Source of the DNA: Rhodospirillales bacterium
GTDB lineage: Bacteria; Pseudomonadota; Alphaproteobacteria; ATCC43930; CGMCC-115725
Reading direction: 5' to 3'
NCBI GenBank assembly: GCA_947473305.1
Contig: CANJCB010000013.1
Span: forward strand, 1-64,000
DNA: 64,000 nucleotides
Positions within the stretch are counted from its first letter, which is position 1; every line of letters starts with the position of its first letter. The translations under genes and the position numbers were made by a program. The notes beneath the pieces were generated by a model. The model had not been told where the DNA came from. It did not search any database and saw only the letters and a list, made by a program, of their open reading frames with translations. Shown in pieces: positions 236 through 57,255 of this stretch.

Positions 236-505
236 GGGCTGATTGAAGGCAGGGCTGGCCCCCGAGGCGACGGTCGCCCAGCTCTCGTTCCGAGAATATG
301 CCCGATCATCCTCCGCTCTATCGCCAGGCCCGGTTTTATGCCCGTCAGGGCGTCAACCTCGATCGCTCGCCCCGCGGGGCGGCCGTCCTCTACTAGGTTC
401 GGCGTGCCGCCTTCCTGATGTTGTCGGTGCAGGGACGACTATTCATTCTGACTGAAGGTATCGCAGAAGCTATTCGCCGAGGAGATCACGCTGCCGACCT
501 CACCT
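236..505 (+). pseudogene. Decayed IS66 transposase (TnpC) fragment
   Basis: Pieces of an IS66-family TnpC can be read across shifting frames: GLIEG at 236-250, then after one extra base GLAPEATVAQLSFREYA from 252, then after one extra C near 302-305 DHPPLYRQARFYARQG and LDRS, and finally SQKLFAEE from 461. These match in order the part of TnpC just before its catalytic region (family pattern GLPTEA...KYADHLPLYRQ...ARQG...LDRS...KLF.DET). At least three frame breaks and a short deletion after LDRS make it non-functional. Its right end runs into the 3' end of the neighbouring integrase gene. The short open frame at 243-455 is only one slice of this remnant. Confidence 0.75.
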
Positions 506-1688
506 CCCGAACCAACGAGGATACATAATCTGCCCAGGCTGCCAGCGCCTGCCGCTTTTCGCTCACATAGAGATGCCGGTTATAGACGCTCGAAAGTCCC
601 TTCTGCGCGTGATTGAGCACGCGATCGATGACCTCCTGGGACACCCCGAGCGCCGCCATCCCGGTACTCGCGGTGCGCCGTAAATCATGGAAAGTCCAAT
701 CCCCTACCGAGGACCTGCAGTCGAGGATATCCTTGAGGCGCTTTTGGCCTGCATAAGGCTTCTTGCCATTCACCGTAAACACGTAATCACCCAACCTCGG
801 AAGTGACTGCAGCAGCGCAACCGCCTGCTCAGACAGCGGAACCTCATGGTCGCGCTTGCTTTTGTTGCGCGATCCGGGGATTGCCCATATCCCCCGCTTC
901 AGATCAAGTTCGCTCCACCCCATGCATCGCACCTCATCTCGCCTTTGTCCGGTGAGGATCCACATTTTCACCAGCGTCCTGCTGGGATCGGGCAGCTCGC
1001 ATGCAGCACCCCACAGCGCGCACAGTTCGTCATCGTTGAGCACGCGCGTGCGGCTGTGTTCCACGCGCCGCTTCTTAATGGCTGCAACCGGATTGACCTC
1101 CATATAGCCACGCTCAATCGCCCAGTTGAACGCGGCAACCAGCTGCGATCGAACGCGATTAACCTGGGCAGCAAGCTTCTTCTTGGACTGGAGCATGTCG
1201 AGCAGCTCAACGATTTTGACTCGCCGAACTTCATTCAGCATCGTCGATCCGAGCGTCGGCGTCACATGCATTTCGAACATACGTTTCGTGAGCGTCCAAC
1301 GCCGCTGAGACGCCTTGCAGTAGTTTTCGACATATTCACCCAAGAGCCAGGAAAGGGTACGAGCCTGCCTCACGCGCTCGAGTTCGCGCACCTCCTCCGC
1401 CTTGCGAGCGGCACGCTCGGTCTCAGGAAGATCGATGCCATGACGAGCGGCGGCATAGATCGCCGCGGCGCGTTGCCGGGCATCAGCCAGCGACACAGTA
1501 GGATACGGCCCTTTCACCTCGTAGCGCTGAGATTGTCCCTTAGGCCTATACCGGATTTGCCAGCTCTTCTCCCCTCTGGTCGTCACGCGCAGTGTGAGCC
1601 CAAGCGTCGATGCATCCGCGATGGACAGCCGGCCCGTGGCCGGCGGTTTCACGGTTTGAACGAATTTTTCGGTCAATTTCACGTGCAT
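486..1688 (-). CDS. P4-type tyrosine recombinase / integrase
   Basis: This 400-residue protein has the two-part form of P4-like integrases: an N-terminal DUF4102 arm-binding domain (about 1-90), a core-binding SAM-like domain (about 110-205) and a C-terminal catalytic domain (about 215-385). The tyrosine-recombinase residues are all visible: Arg249 in TGQRRDE, a Lys near 276-278, His334 and Arg337 in FHDLRRT, His360 in LNHA and Tyr369 in SVYNRH. It should catalyse site-specific integration or excision of a genomic island. Length is normal for the family. Its last codons overlap the decayed IS66 fragment, so its natural C-terminus may have been altered. No excisionase or phage gene is seen, so the island either lies to the left of the window or has been lost. 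Confidence 0.93.
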   Translation of the reverse strand: MHVKLTEKFVQTVKPPATGRLSIADASTLGLTLRVTTRGEKSWQIRYRPKGQSQRYEVKGPYPTVSLADARQRAAAIYAAARHGIDLPETERAARKAEEVRELERVRQARTLSWLLGEYVENYCKASQRRWTLTKRMFEMHVTPTLGSTMLNEVRRVKIVELLDMLQSKKKLAAQVNRVRSQLVAAFNWAIERGYMEVNPVAAIKKRRVEHSRTRVLNDDELCALWGAACELPDPSRTLVKMWILTGQRRDEVRCMGWSELDLKRGIWAIPGSRNKSKRDHEVPLSEQAVALLQSLPRLGDYVFTVNGKKPYAGQKRLKDILDCRSSVGDWTFHDLRRTASTGMAALGVSQEVIDRVLNHAQKGLSSVYNRHLYVSEKRQALAAWADYVSSLVREVRSAA

Positions 1689-52284: not shown

Positions 52285-53568
52285 TTAGCGGATATAAGCG
52301 ACACGCCAGACAGTCCCCGACCCGTCGTCGGTGACGAGCAGCGCCCCGTCGGCCGCCGCCGTCACGCCCACCGGGCGGCCGCGCACCTCACCGCTCCTGC
52401 CGACGAATCCGGTCATGAAATCCACATAGGTCCCATCGGGCTTACCGTCCTTCAAGGGGATGCAGATCACCTTGTAGCCGGTGCGTTGGGCGCGGTTCCA
52501 GGAGCCATGCAGTCCGACGAAGAGATTGCCCCGATAGTCGGCGGGAAAGGCCGTGCCCCCGTAAATCGTAAGCCCGAGCGGCGCGGAATGAGGTTGGATC
52601 AGAACATCGGGAAGCCTGACCTTGCCTTTGAGATCGGCCGGCGCCTCCTTGTGGCGGGGATCCGGGTGATCGCCGATATAAAACCATGGCCAGCCGTAAA
52701 AACCGCCCCGCGCCACCCGGGTCACATAGTCGGGCGGCAGATTGTCCCCCAGAAGGTCCCGCTCATTGACGCTGGTCCATAGATCGCCAGTCTCGGGATG
52801 AACGAGAAGCGAGACGGGGTTGCGGATGCCCGAGGCAAAGACCTGCTCGCCGGAACCATCGGCATTGAATTCCAGGATATTGGCGCGGCGGGCCTCGCCC
52901 GCCATACCGCCCTCGGCGGCATTGCTGGCGGAGCCCACCGCGACCAGCATCTTCGAGCCGTCCTTCGAGAAGGTCACATCCCGCGTCCAATGCCCGCCCT
53001 GCGGCAGGTTCGGCACCACGACTTGGGCCGTCCCGCCCGCCTTCAGGTCGCCGGTCTTATAGGGATAGCGGATCACCTGTCCCTCGGTCGCCACATAGAC
53101 GAATTGGGGATTGTTTCCCGTTGGCCAGAAGCCGATGCCATAGGGACGCTGGGAGATGCCCTCGGCGAAGACCGAGACCTCCGCTTTCGCGGCGCCGGGA
53201 GCCGCCCTGAGAACGAGAATCCGCCGAGAGCCGCTTTCGGCCAGGAAGACATCGCCGTTGGGAGCGACCCGCATCTGGCGCGGCATGCTCAGCTTCTCGG
53301 CGAAAGGCGTCACGGTGAAACCGGCCGGCACCTGCAATCCCGAATCGGATGCCGCCGCAGCGCCACGGGAGGAGTTGCTCGCCGAGCGCGTGGCGAAGGG
53401 CGGGGGCAGATCGCCGGGGCGGATATGCCGGACCACACCAGGTTCCGAGACCGTCGTATCGCCATAGGCCGCCTCGCCGGTCAGCACGGGATCGGCGGCA
53501 AAGGCGGTCGATCCCAAGGTGAGGGCCCAAGGCAGAGCGAGAAGCGCGAAACGGCGGCGGACCGGCAT
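52285..53568 (-). CDS. Soluble PQQ-type sugar dehydrogenase (sorbosone dehydrogenase family)
   Basis: A 427-residue periplasmic protein with a Sec signal (RRRFALLALPWALTLGSTAFA) and a six-bladed propeller: MPRQMRVAPNGDVFLAESGS, RDVTFSKDGSKMLVAVGSAS, GIRNPVSLLVHPETGDLW, VTRVARGGFYGWPWFYIGD and FVGLHGSWNRAQRTGYK. Family members oxidise aldoses or sorbosone with PQQ, but many homologs have no shown activity. Two ATGs lie close together (53574 and 53568); 53568 has AAGGGG at six-base spacing. It is six bases upstream of the glycosyltransferase start, so they are probably co-transcribed. Confidence 0.87.
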   Translation of the reverse strand: MPVRRRFALLALPWALTLGSTAFAADPVLTGEAAYGDTTVSEPGVVRHIRPGDLPPPFATRSASNSSRGAAAASDSGLQVPAGFTVTPFAEKLSMPRQMRVAPNGDVFLAESGSRRILVLRAAPGAAKAEVSVFAEGISQRPYGIGFWPTGNNPQFVYVATEGQVIRYPYKTGDLKAGGTAQVVVPNLPQGGHWTRDVTFSKDGSKMLVAVGSASNAAEGGMAGEARRANILEFNADGSGEQVFASGIRNPVSLLVHPETGDLWTSVNERDLLGDNLPPDYVTRVARGGFYGWPWFYIGDHPDPRHKEAPADLKGKVRLPDVLIQPHSAPLGLTIYGGTAFPADYRGNLFVGLHGSWNRAQRTGYKVICIPLKDGKPDGTYVDFMTGFVGRSGEVRGRPVGVTAAADGALLVTDDGSGTVWRVAYIR

Positions 53569-53689
53569 GGTCATCCCCTTGGAAAAGCGCCCGAGCCTCG
53601 CACAGGCCCCGGGCGAGGCACAACGATTAGATCGGATCAGACCCTTCCGCGCGCCGCCCAGGCTGTCGCGGCCATGCTGCGCGGGACCG

Positions 53690-53892
53690 TCCGTTCCCCC
53701 AGAGAGATAGGCCCGGCGGACCGCCTCCGCCAGCCACTCTCATCGCTCGGCATCGACTTGCCTCGTGGTGGCCAAGGGTAGCGGACGCAAGGTCATGAAT
53801 GTCGCCAGGATCGATGCGGACATGGGCGGTCGTCTGGCCCTACTTCACTTCACGATCTTGCCTTTCAACCGATTGCGCGCGCTGAGCTTCAT
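53690..53892 (-). pseudogene. mop: Decayed molbindin (mop) gene
   Basis: From ATG 53892 the minus strand reads MKLSARNRLKGKIV and then stops at codon 16. Restoring one G (GTGAA to GTGGAA) continues VK, a TAG codon where Lys is expected, and GQTTAHVRIDPGD, which is the molbindin/TOBE core (family pattern SARN.LKG.V..V..G.TTAHV.ID). Further on, shifted pieces such as EAVDA can still be read. So the gene has at least one frameshift, one nonsense codon and later shifts, and is dead. Intact Mop proteins of about 70 residues bind molybdate in the cytoplasm and are often encoded beside modABC. This copy diverges from modA, with ModE-like sites in between. Confidence 0.78.
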
Positions 53893-53907
53893 GGCCGCAT
53901 CTGCCTT

Positions 53908-53931
53908 CGCTATATCGAAAATGAAATAGCG
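53908..53931. promoter_or_regulatory. ModE-like dyad, mop-proximal
   Basis: CGCTATAT (53908-53915), eight bases, then AAATAGCG (53924-53931): a near-perfect dyad (7 of 8 positions) in the form of the Mo-box bound by molybdate-ModE. It lies 16 bp before the start of the mop pseudogene. Confidence 0.6.
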
Positions 53932-53955
53932 TTATGCTTCCTTTCGCAGGCACCA

Positions 53956-53979
53956 CGCTATATCTTTAGAGATATAAAG
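53956..53979. promoter_or_regulatory. ModE-like dyad, modA-proximal
   Basis: CGCTATAT (53956-53963), eight bases, then ATATAAAG (53972-53979). It has the same 8-8-8 layout as the site 48 bp to the left and a perfect inner palindrome TATATC/GATATA. It lies 19 bp before the modA start, where bound ModE would block transcription when molybdate is plentiful. Confidence 0.65.
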
Positions 53980-53998: not shown

Positions 53999-54781
53999 AT
54001 GGGGTTAACTGTTCGTATCCGTGCGTTTCTGCTTCTCGGCCTCGGATGGATGCTGGCGCTGCCCCTGGCCCAGGTCAGGGCCCAGGACCCGCTCGTCCTC
54101 GCGGCAGCGAGCCTCAAGGACGCACTCGACGAAGCAGCCGGCATCTGGAAACAGCAGAGCGGCGGCGGAGCGGTCACGATCTCCTATGCATCGAGTTCCG
54201 CTCTCGCAAAGCAGATCGAAAATGGTTCGCCGGCCGATATCTTCATGTCCGCCGATCTCGACTGGATGGACTATCTCGACAAGAAGAACTTCTTGAAGCC
54301 AGGGACCCGCTTCAACTGGCTCGGCAATAAGCTGGTGCTGGTGGCCCCGGCAACCAATGCCGTCATGATCGACATCAAACCCGACTTCCCCCTGTCGAAG
54401 CTTCTGAACGGCGGCAAGCTCGCCATCGCCCAGCCCGAAAGCGTCCCGGCCGGCAAATACGGCAAGGCCGCGCTGGAAAAGCTCAACGTCTGGTCCTCGG
54501 TGCAGGGCCAACTCGCCACGGCCGAGGATGGGCGCGCCACGCTGCGCTTCGTTTCCCGTGCGGAAGCCCCGCTCGGCATCGTCTACCAGACAGACGCCGC
54601 TTCGGACAAAGCGGTCAAAATCGTCGGGACCTTCCCTGAGGGCAGCCATCCGCCGATCATCTATCCGGCGGCCCTGCTGAAAGACGGCAAGAACGACAAG
54701 GCGGCGGCGTTCCTCGCCTTCCTGCGTTCACCTGCGGCCCAGCCCGCCTTCACGAAGCAGGGCTTCGAGGTATTGAAGTAA
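53999..54781 (+). CDS. modA: Molybdate ABC transporter substrate-binding protein
   Basis: A 260-residue periplasmic protein with a Sec signal (LLLGLGWMLALPLAQVRAQ). ModA signatures are VLAAASLKDALDEAAGIW (oxyanion-binding Ala-Ser), ISYASSSALAKQIENGSPAD, DIFMSADLDWMDYL and LGIVYQTDAASDKAVKIVG. It captures molybdate or tungstate. AGGAG stands before the ATG at 53999. ModE-like dyads upstream suggest molybdate-responsive control. It is followed by modB but no modC is present. Confidence 0.95.
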   Translation: MGLTVRIRAFLLLGLGWMLALPLAQVRAQDPLVLAAASLKDALDEAAGIWKQQSGGGAVTISYASSSALAKQIENGSPADIFMSADLDWMDYLDKKNFLKPGTRFNWLGNKLVLVAPATNAVMIDIKPDFPLSKLLNGGKLAIAQPESVPAGKYGKAALEKLNVWSSVQGQLATAEDGRATLRFVSRAEAPLGIVYQTDAASDKAVKIVGTFPEGSHPPIIYPAALLKDGKNDKAAAFLAFLRSPAAQPAFTKQGFEVLK

Positions 54782-54786
54782 TTCCT

Positions 54787-54831
54787 ATGGCCTTGTGTCC
54801 CGGGCCTTCTACGGCTTAGACACAAGGCCAT
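54787..54831 (+). promoter_or_regulatory. 13-bp hairpin covering the modB start
   Basis: ATGGCCTTGTGTC (54787-54799) and GACACAAGGCCAT (54819-54831) are perfect reverse complements with a 19-base loop. The right arm holds the first two bases of the modB ATG (54830-54832) and the only Shine-Dalgarno-like bases (AAGG). There is no T-tract. If formed in RNA it would hide the modB start, giving translational control or dependence on coupling. Confidence 0.7.
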
Positions 54832-55522
54832 GTGGACCCTTTCCGACGAAGAGCGTTCCGCGCTCTGGCTCAGTCTTCAGGTTTCGGCATGGGCGGTGGG
54901 CGCGAGCCTGCCGCCCGCCCTGCTTTGCGCGCTCCTCATGGCCCGCGTCCGCTTCGTCGGCAAAAGCATCTTCGAGGGGCTGATCTACCTGCCCCTGGTG
55001 CTGCCGCCGGTCGTGACAGGATATCTCCTGCTCATCCTCCTGGGACGGCGGGGATATATCGGCTCCTGGCTTTACGATACCTTCGGCATCCTCTTCGCCT
55101 TTCGCTGGACGGGGGCGGCCATCGCCTCGGCCATCATGGGTTTTCCCCTGATGGTGCGGGCGATCCGCCTGTCGCTGGAATCCGTCGACCGCCGCATCGA
55201 GACTGCCGCCAGGACGCTCGGCGCCGGACGCTGGCGGGTCTTCTTCACCATCACCCTGCCCCTGACCCTGCCGGGAATCGTCGCCGGCAGCGTACTCTCC
55301 TTCGGGCGCAGCCTGGGCGAGTTCGGGGCGACCATCACCTTCGTGTCGAATATTCCCGGCGAGACGCGGACCCTACCCTTGGCGATCTATACCCTGACCC
55401 AGGTGCCGGGCGGCGACGAGGCGGCGCTGCGCCTCATCGTCATCTCGATCGCGCTGTCGTTGGCGACGCTCATCGCGTCGGAGCTTCTGGTCAGGCGCGC
55501 GACCGAGCGGCTGCACGGCTAG
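54830..55522 (+). CDS. modB: Molybdate ABC transporter permease
   Basis: A 230-residue inner-membrane permease with five to six helices. The start MWTLSDEERSALWLSLQVS is typical of ModB, and the ATPase-docking EAA loop reads ETAARTLGAGRWRVFFTITL. SFGRSLGEFGATITFVSNIPG is the conserved ModB segment near the C-terminal helices. Length is normal. It lies 48 bp after modA behind a strong hairpin. Its stop abuts the convergent gene at 55523, so the usual third gene modC is missing here and the ATPase must be encoded elsewhere or borrowed. Confidence 0.95.
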   Translation: MWTLSDEERSALWLSLQVSAWAVGASLPPALLCALLMARVRFVGKSIFEGLIYLPLVLPPVVTGYLLLILLGRRGYIGSWLYDTFGILFAFRWTGAAIASAIMGFPLMVRAIRLSLESVDRRIETAARTLGAGRWRVFFTITLPLTLPGIVAGSVLSFGRSLGEFGATITFVSNIPGETRTLPLAIYTLTQVPGGDEAALRLIVISIALSLATLIASELLVRRATERLHG

Positions 55523-57112
55523 CTATTTCGCGAGCCAAGCCTCGGTCCAATAGCCGCTGCCCTGGGCCTTACCCCAGACGCCGCGCAGGCGCTTCGACGC
55601 CGCGTCGTTCTCCTTGTACTGACGCAGCGTGAAGACCGGCAGATCCTCGGCGACGATGGCCTGGGCCTGCTTATAGAACGGCCCGCGCTCGGCAAAATCG
55701 GTCGCCCCCTCGCCCTTCGCAAAAAGCTCATCGACGAGCGGATTGGAATAGGCCGAGGGATTGCCGTAGGACTTGCCGATGACTGCCGTGCTCCAGGTCC
55801 GGGCGACACCCAGGGCCGGGTCCGAATAGCTTGTATAGGTCTGCACGGTGGTATCGAAGTCCATATCCGTGAAGACCTTCTTGATCATGGTCGCGTCTTC
55901 GAGGGCTTCGGTCGAAGCCTCGACACCCACCGCCTGCCACATGCTGCGCATGGCCGCGGCGACCTGCTGAAACTCCGGATACTGGTTCGAGAAGATGCTG
56001 ATCGTGGTGCTGAAACGCTTGCCGTCGGGTCCCCGCTTCAGGCCCGCCTCGTCGAGCATCGCATTCGCTTTGGCGACATCGAAGGGATACATCTTGCGGT
56101 AATCGATGTCAGGATTGGCGGCCCAGGCGATCTCCGTGGTGAAGGGCGCGGTGCCCACTTGCCCTACCTCGAAGAAGGCGTTCTTGAAGATATAGTCCCG
56201 GTCGATCGCCATGAAGAGCGCCTTGCGCACGAGCTTGTTGTCGAAGGGCTTCTTCTTCGTGTTGTAGAAGACGAGCGTGGTCAGCGGCGCGGAATCGCTG
56301 GTCTCGACCTTCAGGTTCGGCGCGGCACGCACCGTCGAAAGGTAGTTGGGCGGGAAGGCGCGCGAGACATCCACCTCGCCGGCCTGCAGCGCCTGCACGC
56401 GTGCGGAGGCCTGGGAGATGACCTTGCCGATCACCTCGTCGAGGTAGGGCTTCCCCTCCATATAATAGGTCGGGTTCCTGACCAGCTTGACGTGATCGCC
56501 GTGCTGCCAGCTCGAATATTTGAAGGAGCCGGTGCCCGCGAGCTGGGAGATATTGGCTGCGGTCTTGACCGGATCGGTGCCCTTGAAGATATGCGCCGGC
56601 ATGATGGCCGCGCCCTGGATACAGCCCAGCGAGATCAGGAAAGGCCCGAAGGGACGGGAGAGCTTGATGACAACCTTGTCCGGGGCCGGCGTCTCGATCT
56701 TGTCGATGACGCGCCCGGCCGGGGCGAAGACCGAGGAATATTTGGCGCTGACATCGATCAGCGAATAGGCGACGTCCTCGGAGGTGAAGGGCTTGCCATC
56801 GTGCCAGGTCGTCTTCTGCAGCTCGAAGCTGTAGGTCAGCCCGTCGGGCGAAACGCTCCAGGATTTGGCAAGGAGTGGCATCAGCTTGTAGTCGGGCGAA
56901 AGCATCAGGAGGCCTTCGTACATGATGCAGCCCAAGACCCTGTCGCTGACATTCGTCGACAAGGCGGGATTGAGAGAGGTCGGCTCCTGCGGCAACACCG
57001 CGATGGCGGTGCCGCCCCGCACCGGCGTCTCCGCGGTCTGGGCCTGAACAACCGTCACGCCACCGATACCGGCAGCCATCGCAACAAGGCCCCCGAGGAT
57101 AAGTTTTTTCAT
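55523..57112 (-). CDS. Family 5 (peptide/nickel-type) ABC substrate-binding protein
   Basis: A 529-residue periplasmic binding protein (SBP_bac_5). A Sec signal (LILGGLVAMAAGIGGVTVVQ) precedes GTAIAVLPQEPTSLNPALST. Family segments are YEGLLMLSPDYKLMPLLAKS, SPDGLTYSFELQKTTWHDGK, FTSEDVAYSL and KALFMAIDRDYIF. It would bind an oligopeptide, opine, glycoside or similar. ATG 57112 fits the signal peptide; the 19 further upstream codons are not needed. No permease or ATPase genes are adjacent. It is the fifth binding protein in the window without transport partners. Confidence 0.9.
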   Translation of the reverse strand: MKKLILGGLVAMAAGIGGVTVVQAQTAETPVRGGTAIAVLPQEPTSLNPALSTNVSDRVLGCIMYEGLLMLSPDYKLMPLLAKSWSVSPDGLTYSFELQKTTWHDGKPFTSEDVAYSLIDVSAKYSSVFAPAGRVIDKIETPAPDKVVIKLSRPFGPFLISLGCIQGAAIMPAHIFKGTDPVKTAANISQLAGTGSFKYSSWQHGDHVKLVRNPTYYMEGKPYLDEVIGKVISQASARVQALQAGEVDVSRAFPPNYLSTVRAAPNLKVETSDSAPLTTLVFYNTKKKPFDNKLVRKALFMAIDRDYIFKNAFFEVGQVGTAPFTTEIAWAANPDIDYRKMYPFDVAKANAMLDEAGLKRGPDGKRFSTTISIFSNQYPEFQQVAAAMRSMWQAVGVEASTEALEDATMIKKVFTDMDFDTTVQTYTSYSDPALGVARTWSTAVIGKSYGNPSAYSNPLVDELFAKGEGATDFAERGPFYKQAQAIVAEDLPVFTLRQYKENDAASKRLRGVWGKAQGSGYWTEAWLAK

Positions 57113-57255
57113 TTCCAAGCTTCTCTCACAAAGTGCCACACATGGGGCGGCATCGTCGGGGAATCCCACTAATCCGTCAACCGACGCTCCACCGGCGATT
57201 GCCAGGAAGCCCAGGGCAAGCTACCCCTGTATCCGGGGTGGATTTGGGGAAACAG

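Follow-up and report, generated by a model that had tools for sequence, protein, structure and literature searches.

A molbindin (mop) gene remnant opposite intact modAB, with two Mo-box-like sites between them, in a Rhodospirillales bacterium

The 64,000-nucleotide stretch of DNA analysed here (the window; positions 1 to 64,000 of contig CANJCB010000013.1, assembly GCA_947473305.1) very probably preserves what is left of a once divergent pair of molybdenum genes, in which mop and modA were controlled through Mo-boxes and a short ModE; mop would since have been lost, and the boxes would still serve modAB. This reading brings together a mop remnant, two Mo-box-like dyads, intact modA and modB genes, a separate modC, a short ModE-like protein, an intact counterpart of the gene pair in a relative, and a patchy distribution of mop, all of which were observed. 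The main idea of an earlier note on this DNA, that the storage protein was lost and the regulatory sites and modAB remained, stands, and is corrected here as to how far the remnant extends, how the boxes are assigned and the precedent taken from Rhodobacter capsulatus. No description of a mop pseudogene facing modA was found in the literature searched, as judged by titles and the beginnings of abstracts.

The remnant lies at 53804–53892 on the minus strand and covers residues 1–30 of the 68 of a Mop protein. From the ATG at 53892 it reads MKLSARNRLKGKIV, then, with one base lacking at the Glu15 codon (around 53850), VK, a TAG at 53842 in the position of Lys18, and GQTTAHVRIDPG, the part downstream of the TAG reading GQTTAHVRID; owing to the one frameshift and the one TAG it has no open reading frame. 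Both lesions, like the start and the TTAHVRID core of a dead molbindin gene on this strand, had been read correctly in the earlier note. In a DNA alignment allowing for frameshifts and stops, with a profile of 33 Mop proteins from the loci collected here, the segment scored 70 over Mop positions 1–30 of 68, whereas 150 control segments of equal length, taken from the window's first 52 kb, averaged 12.0 and reached 17.2 at most. That the similarity arose by chance and mop was never present deserves next to no credence, given the best score among these controls and the position of the segment, which has the same strand as, and nearly the same distance from modA as, the intact mop of the related genome G016 (see below). 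The NCBIfam Mop model TIGR00638, searched against the whole genome, picks 53842–53892 weakly (15.5 bits, E 0.07, one internal stop), and the remnant is not among the matches to the Pfam TOBE model (PF03459) in the same genome. With the free Mop/molbindin genes of these families it shares the first 30 residues, the start motif MKLSARN and a divergent place beside modA like that in G016; it differs from them by the frameshift, the stop and the missing 3′ half, which leave a full protein unreadable. The N-terminal sequence of the family is present and the single TOBE domain of about 68–70 residues is absent, and on this sequence evidence 53804–53892 is a non-functioning remnant of a member of the Mop/molbindin family.

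The earlier note had followed the gene further, by way of later shifts, down to 53690, and this claim had to be given up: of 53690–53892 (minus), 53804–53892 is Mop-like and the remainder is not. Between 53580 and 53805, an alignment tolerant of frameshifts recovers no Mop residues (score 10.1, control mean 10.8; 141 of 200 controls as good). The expected place of the rest of mop, 53575–53803 (minus), contains no recognisable Mop sequence and constitutes the upstream region of a gene of the glucose/sorbosone dehydrogenase family (GSDH-type; 52285–53574, minus strand; PF07995, 55.5 bits). As read here, the 3′ half of mop is deleted or unrecognisable, and 53804–53892 is the remnant that can be supported. 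One might suspect a sequencing or assembly artefact of an intact mop, since there is a single assembly and an isolated frameshift might come from an error, but here a frameshift, a stop made by substitution and the absence of the complete 3′ half occur together, and we regard an artefact as very unlikely. The GSDH-type gene, downstream of the remnant on the same strand and beginning 229 bp beyond it, might also have taken over the promoter and box of mop and now be regulated by molybdenum, which would fit the fact that the box has not been erased. We hold such a takeover to be distinctly improbable: to our knowledge this gene family is not a member of any Mo system and makes no use of molybdenum, and a promoter and terminator scan of the mop/modA region found nothing, although a consensus promoter is absent for modA too.

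On the opposite strand, the molybdate uptake genes are intact, as the earlier note had stated. The plus-strand genes modA (53999–54781; molybdate-binding protein of 260 aa; TIGR01256, 192.4 bits, cut-off 62.5) and modB (54830–55522; molybdate permease of 230 aa; NF006939, 361.8 bits, cut-off 262) both match their models above the cut-offs. No modC follows modB, the next gene (55523–57169) being encoded on the minus strand; an intact modC is found alone on another contig (C1:149945–151048), apart from modAB, and the ModABC transporter is complete in this genome, with intact ModA and ModB and a ModC encoded outside the operon. The top box-like site of a 14 kb stretch of that contig is located directly before modC, with a matrix score (see below) of 6.9, which is below that of the weakest training site (8.9). 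Among relatives, a ModC-like TOBE match lies about 2.3–3.6 kb after modA in 70 of 80 loci (the best 80 of at least 376), and the ModC-type match in the genomes G007 and G016 is likewise distant from modA or on a different contig.

Between the remnant and modA lie two dyads of the same layout, 48 bp apart, as had been noticed before: a mop-side one at 53908–53931 (CGCTATAT-N8-AAATAGCG) and a modA-side one at 53956–53979 (CGCTATAT-N8-ATATAAAG). Both follow the ModE-type Mo-box pattern CGnTATAT-N8-ATATAnCG with 13 of 14 core letters each; the published consensus is ATCGCTATATAN6TATATAACGAT (PMC2700814). They are the sole matches to CGNTATAT-N8-ATATANCG in the window at up to two mismatches, where 0.02 would be expected, and none of 100 shuffles gave two matches. 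We also scored the window with a matrix trained on 120 different sites upstream of modA at other loci, which were chosen by the same core and reach 8.9 to 41.4 (median 31.7); the window's own sites were left out. The modA-side dyad ranks first (26.3) and the mop-side dyad second (14.9), followed by the next real site at 10.8. The matrix test proposed in the earlier note bears out both dyads by rank and the mop-side one weakly by score, the best site in five shuffled windows reaching 13.6. By the matrix, the mop-side dyad is only just outside chance, and it is credible because it is placed between two molybdate genes.

The distribution of such boxes was determined in 110 modA loci (80 of at least 376 relatives plus 30 of 35 matches listed, including the window's own), many of which belong to close relatives from Rhizobium and Agrobacterium and are not independent. 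With modA starts estimated by alignment with the ModA of the window, one or more boxes (12/14 or better) are present within 300 bp before the start in 85 of the loci and two boxes in 54, compared with 0 of 545 shuffled upstream regions. Fifty of the 54 two-box loci, the window included, are without an intact mop in the compared flank, that is, without one of at least 80 bits within up to 5 kb (80 loci) or about 1.5 kb (the other 30). The two-box layout is therefore a property of modA promoters in their own right and does not, taken alone, show that each gene had its own box; the assignment of one box to each gene in the earlier note is not borne out here, and G016, with its mop intact, has one box. 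We nevertheless rate it as somewhat short of an even chance that each box was the operator of a single gene, the mop-side one of mop and the modA-side one of modA, and that the former is now a fading relic. Among the 33 collected mop genes, 13 are preceded by a box (12/14 or better, up to 250 bp upstream), the distance to the start ranging from 11 to 145 bp, so that a mop gene can have a Mo-box as well. Of the two dyads in the window the mop-side one scores lower, the sole box of G016, at 22 bp from the start of mop, aligns with it, and the spacing departs from the 42–44 bp seen in 47 of the 54 pairs, 48 bp occurring once, in the window. Such an assignment has to contend with the 50 two-box loci without mop and with the position of the mop-side dyad, which, at 91 bp from the start of modA, falls inside the range of 80–191 bp (median 96) of the distal box in the 53 other two-box loci. 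We prefer the reading in which both boxes serve modA, and infer that the mop-side box was kept for this gene and is not merely un-eroded.

An intact mop divergent from modA and within 500 bp of it is rare (3 of the 110 loci). Two of the cases are on contigs of Rhizobiales MAGs, where mop starts at about −165 (L056) and −169 (L071) relative to modA; the third is G016, which belongs to the same family as the genome studied here. In G016, the start of mop is 108 bp ahead of that estimated for modA, or 105 bp ahead of an in-frame GTG, and the corresponding distance in the window is 107 bp; the remnant could be aligned with the intact G016 gene. This pair most strongly supports the view that the window represents the lost member of a once functioning divergent mop/modA pair, and it agrees with the orientation proposed earlier. 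No genome of the same genus was among the genomes searched. The neighbours in G016 differ from those in the window: a periplasmic-binding-protein gene (PF01497) follows modA, and a response-regulator-like gene, recognised by eye, lies beyond mop. The former, at 424–1497 (minus) of contig G016:C14 (L137), matches its model with 59.1 bits and occupies the place after modA without being modB.

Rhodobacter capsulatus, named in the earlier note as a known case of divergent mop and mod genes, turned out not to be one as far as the available part of the source goes: there, nif cluster A contains Mop (Rcc03261), MopA and ModA correspond to Rcc00561 and Rcc00562, and a divergent arrangement is described for morC/morAB (PMC6925177). 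The mop and mopA-modABC genes of this organism resemble the window in their protein families and Mo-boxes, but mop is situated away from mopA-modABC and that part of the source describes no divergent mop/modA pair, unlike the window (PMC6925177).

The earlier note had pointed to modE and further mop genes as relevant to its idea, and the genome search yielded one ModE-like protein, below the family cut-off, and no free mop above it. The ModE-like match is on contig C17 (TIGR00637 domain E 2.4e-23 in a longer frame; 83.7 bits, curated cut-off 98.5), the other four matches in the genome reach at most 13.5 bits, and the cut-off of TIGR00637 is reached in none of the 39 family genomes. From the chosen ATG the protein has 131 residues and has no match in Pfam, hence none to a TOBE domain, and the TOBE search of the genome gave no match there either; the regulator would be a short ModE-like protein consisting of the DNA-binding domain only. 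Its gene starts 83 bp after a TauE/SafE-type gene. In another family genome, a ModE-domain match and a match to the first 40 Mop positions share a 187-residue open frame (G012:C396:4835–5263), perhaps a fusion cut short.

In the ancestor, mop and modA would have stood back to back on either side of a short shared intergenic region, whose Mo-boxes a short ModE would have bound. In the lineage of the window genome, mop would then have been lost through a frameshift, a stop codon and deletion or wearing away of its 3′ half, and the boxes would have been kept because they still serve modAB, the regulator repressing uptake once the supply of molybdenum or molybdenum cofactor suffices. Repression of the ModE type, acting on modAB by way of the boxes, most likely goes on as the storage gene decays; both the binding and the repression are inferred. 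Against this explanation stand the weak matrix score of the mop-side dyad, the single box instead of two in G016, the rarity of intact divergent mop genes, the ModE match below the curated cut-off, and the 48 bp spacing, at which the two boxes may not act as a tandem operator of the common kind. It could be supposed further that buffering and sensing have moved wholly to the level of the cofactor and that the old shared mop/modA operator serves uptake alone, because the genome of the family with the most matches to large subunits of the xanthine dehydrogenase (XDH) type is without a free mop and its ModE-like protein without a molybdate-sensing domain; we consider this unlikely.

A known system close to this one is that of Agrobacterium tumefaciens, in which, according to Hoffmann et al. 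2016, a short ModE reportedly binds two Mo-boxes at modA and answers to molybdenum cofactor. The window genome shares with A. tumefaciens two boxes before modA, a TauE/SafE-type gene before modE and, probably, a short ModE without TOBE, and several Agrobacterium loci among the best 80 of at least 376 relatives have two boxes about 42 bp apart; unlike A. tumefaciens, the window has a box spacing of 48 bp, a mop remnant on the opposite side and a modC apart from modAB. Decay of a ModE regulon has been described for Geobacter metallireducens, where, in the available part of the source, the DNA-binding part of the regulator is lost and the sites are fading (PMC2700814). Common to both cases is the partial decay of a molybdenum-response system in which some binding sites outlive another part, but the window genome lost the storage gene and kept regulator and sites.

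In the genome as a whole, the box pattern at up to two mismatches has 13 sites, compared with seven for a reversed control pattern, and some of the sites are therefore chance matches. Strong box-like sites were considered as markers of molybdenum genes and were not borne out as such, as the four other sites with at most one mismatch precede DcaP/Porin_2-type, TauE/SafE, aldehyde dehydrogenase and luciferase-like monooxygenase genes, none of which we know as molybdenum genes. The first of these sites (C13:106278–106301, L193; outside the window) has a matrix score of 32.2 and is about 65 bp before the gene for the DcaP/Porin_2-type outer membrane protein, which is possibly a molybdenum-controlled porin. 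Another (C25:13821–13844, L194; 29.3) is located just before a TauE/SafE-type transporter gene, a second gene of this type being the one that precedes modE on C17. A site with two mismatches (C4:115530–115553, L195; matrix score 16.5) lies about 430 bp before an XDH-family open frame with both MoCoBD domains. This site and the weak one before modC are the candidates for the matching dyads at other molybdenum genes that the earlier note called for.

The genome, which is rated 100% complete, contains no free mop above the family cut-off of the NCBIfam Mop model. This model scores best with the TOBE domain of the C1-encoded ModC (44.4 bits), and the other Mop/TOBE matches, on C17, C18 and C42, are weak (12.8–18.6 bits) and within frames of 348 to 1163 residues. 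Across the family, a free mop above the cut-off was called, by hand, in 23 of 39 genomes, this one included in the 39, and seven genomes of at least 90% completeness besides this one lack it. Since mop is patchy in the family, its absence or damage appears not to be rare there, and the window would be a case of ordinary gene decay. A second damaged mop was seen beside modA in G026 (L124, 1173–1374 of G026:C422), co-directional with modA; its aligned reading contains two frameshifts but no stop codon. This assembly is fragmented and 79% complete and contains another mop above the cut-off. With 34 matches to MoCoBD_1 (large subunit of XDH-type enzymes), the genome has the most of the 39, the next having 30, 24 and 24, counts that may be lowered by incompleteness and fragmentation; the loss of mop is therefore not explained by a loss of Mo enzymes. 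One of the 34 matches is inside the window (C13:34520–35260, plus strand). We also tried, and rejected, the idea that Mop follows the number of molybdoenzymes: XDH-family matches are more numerous in 14 genomes with mop than in seven without it (Mann–Whitney p 0.011; p 0.064 once this genome is added), in a comparison of genomes at least 90% complete that used presence called by hand, was uncorrected for relatedness and retained one genome with 7% contamination. Here, the match of G004 (59.4 bits, above the cut-off, in a 568-residue frame) was assigned to the ModC type, and G012, with a partial match below the cut-off, was taken as being without mop.

The window thus offers a still readable example of the loss of mop in which likely ModE-type sites before modA stayed in place, and the loci compared indicate that the two-box modA promoter is independent of mop. 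That the loss is found in the most XDH-rich of the 39 relatives argues against Mop being kept in proportion to the need for molybdenum, and makes the relation between Mop and molybdenum need a question that can be tested in this family.
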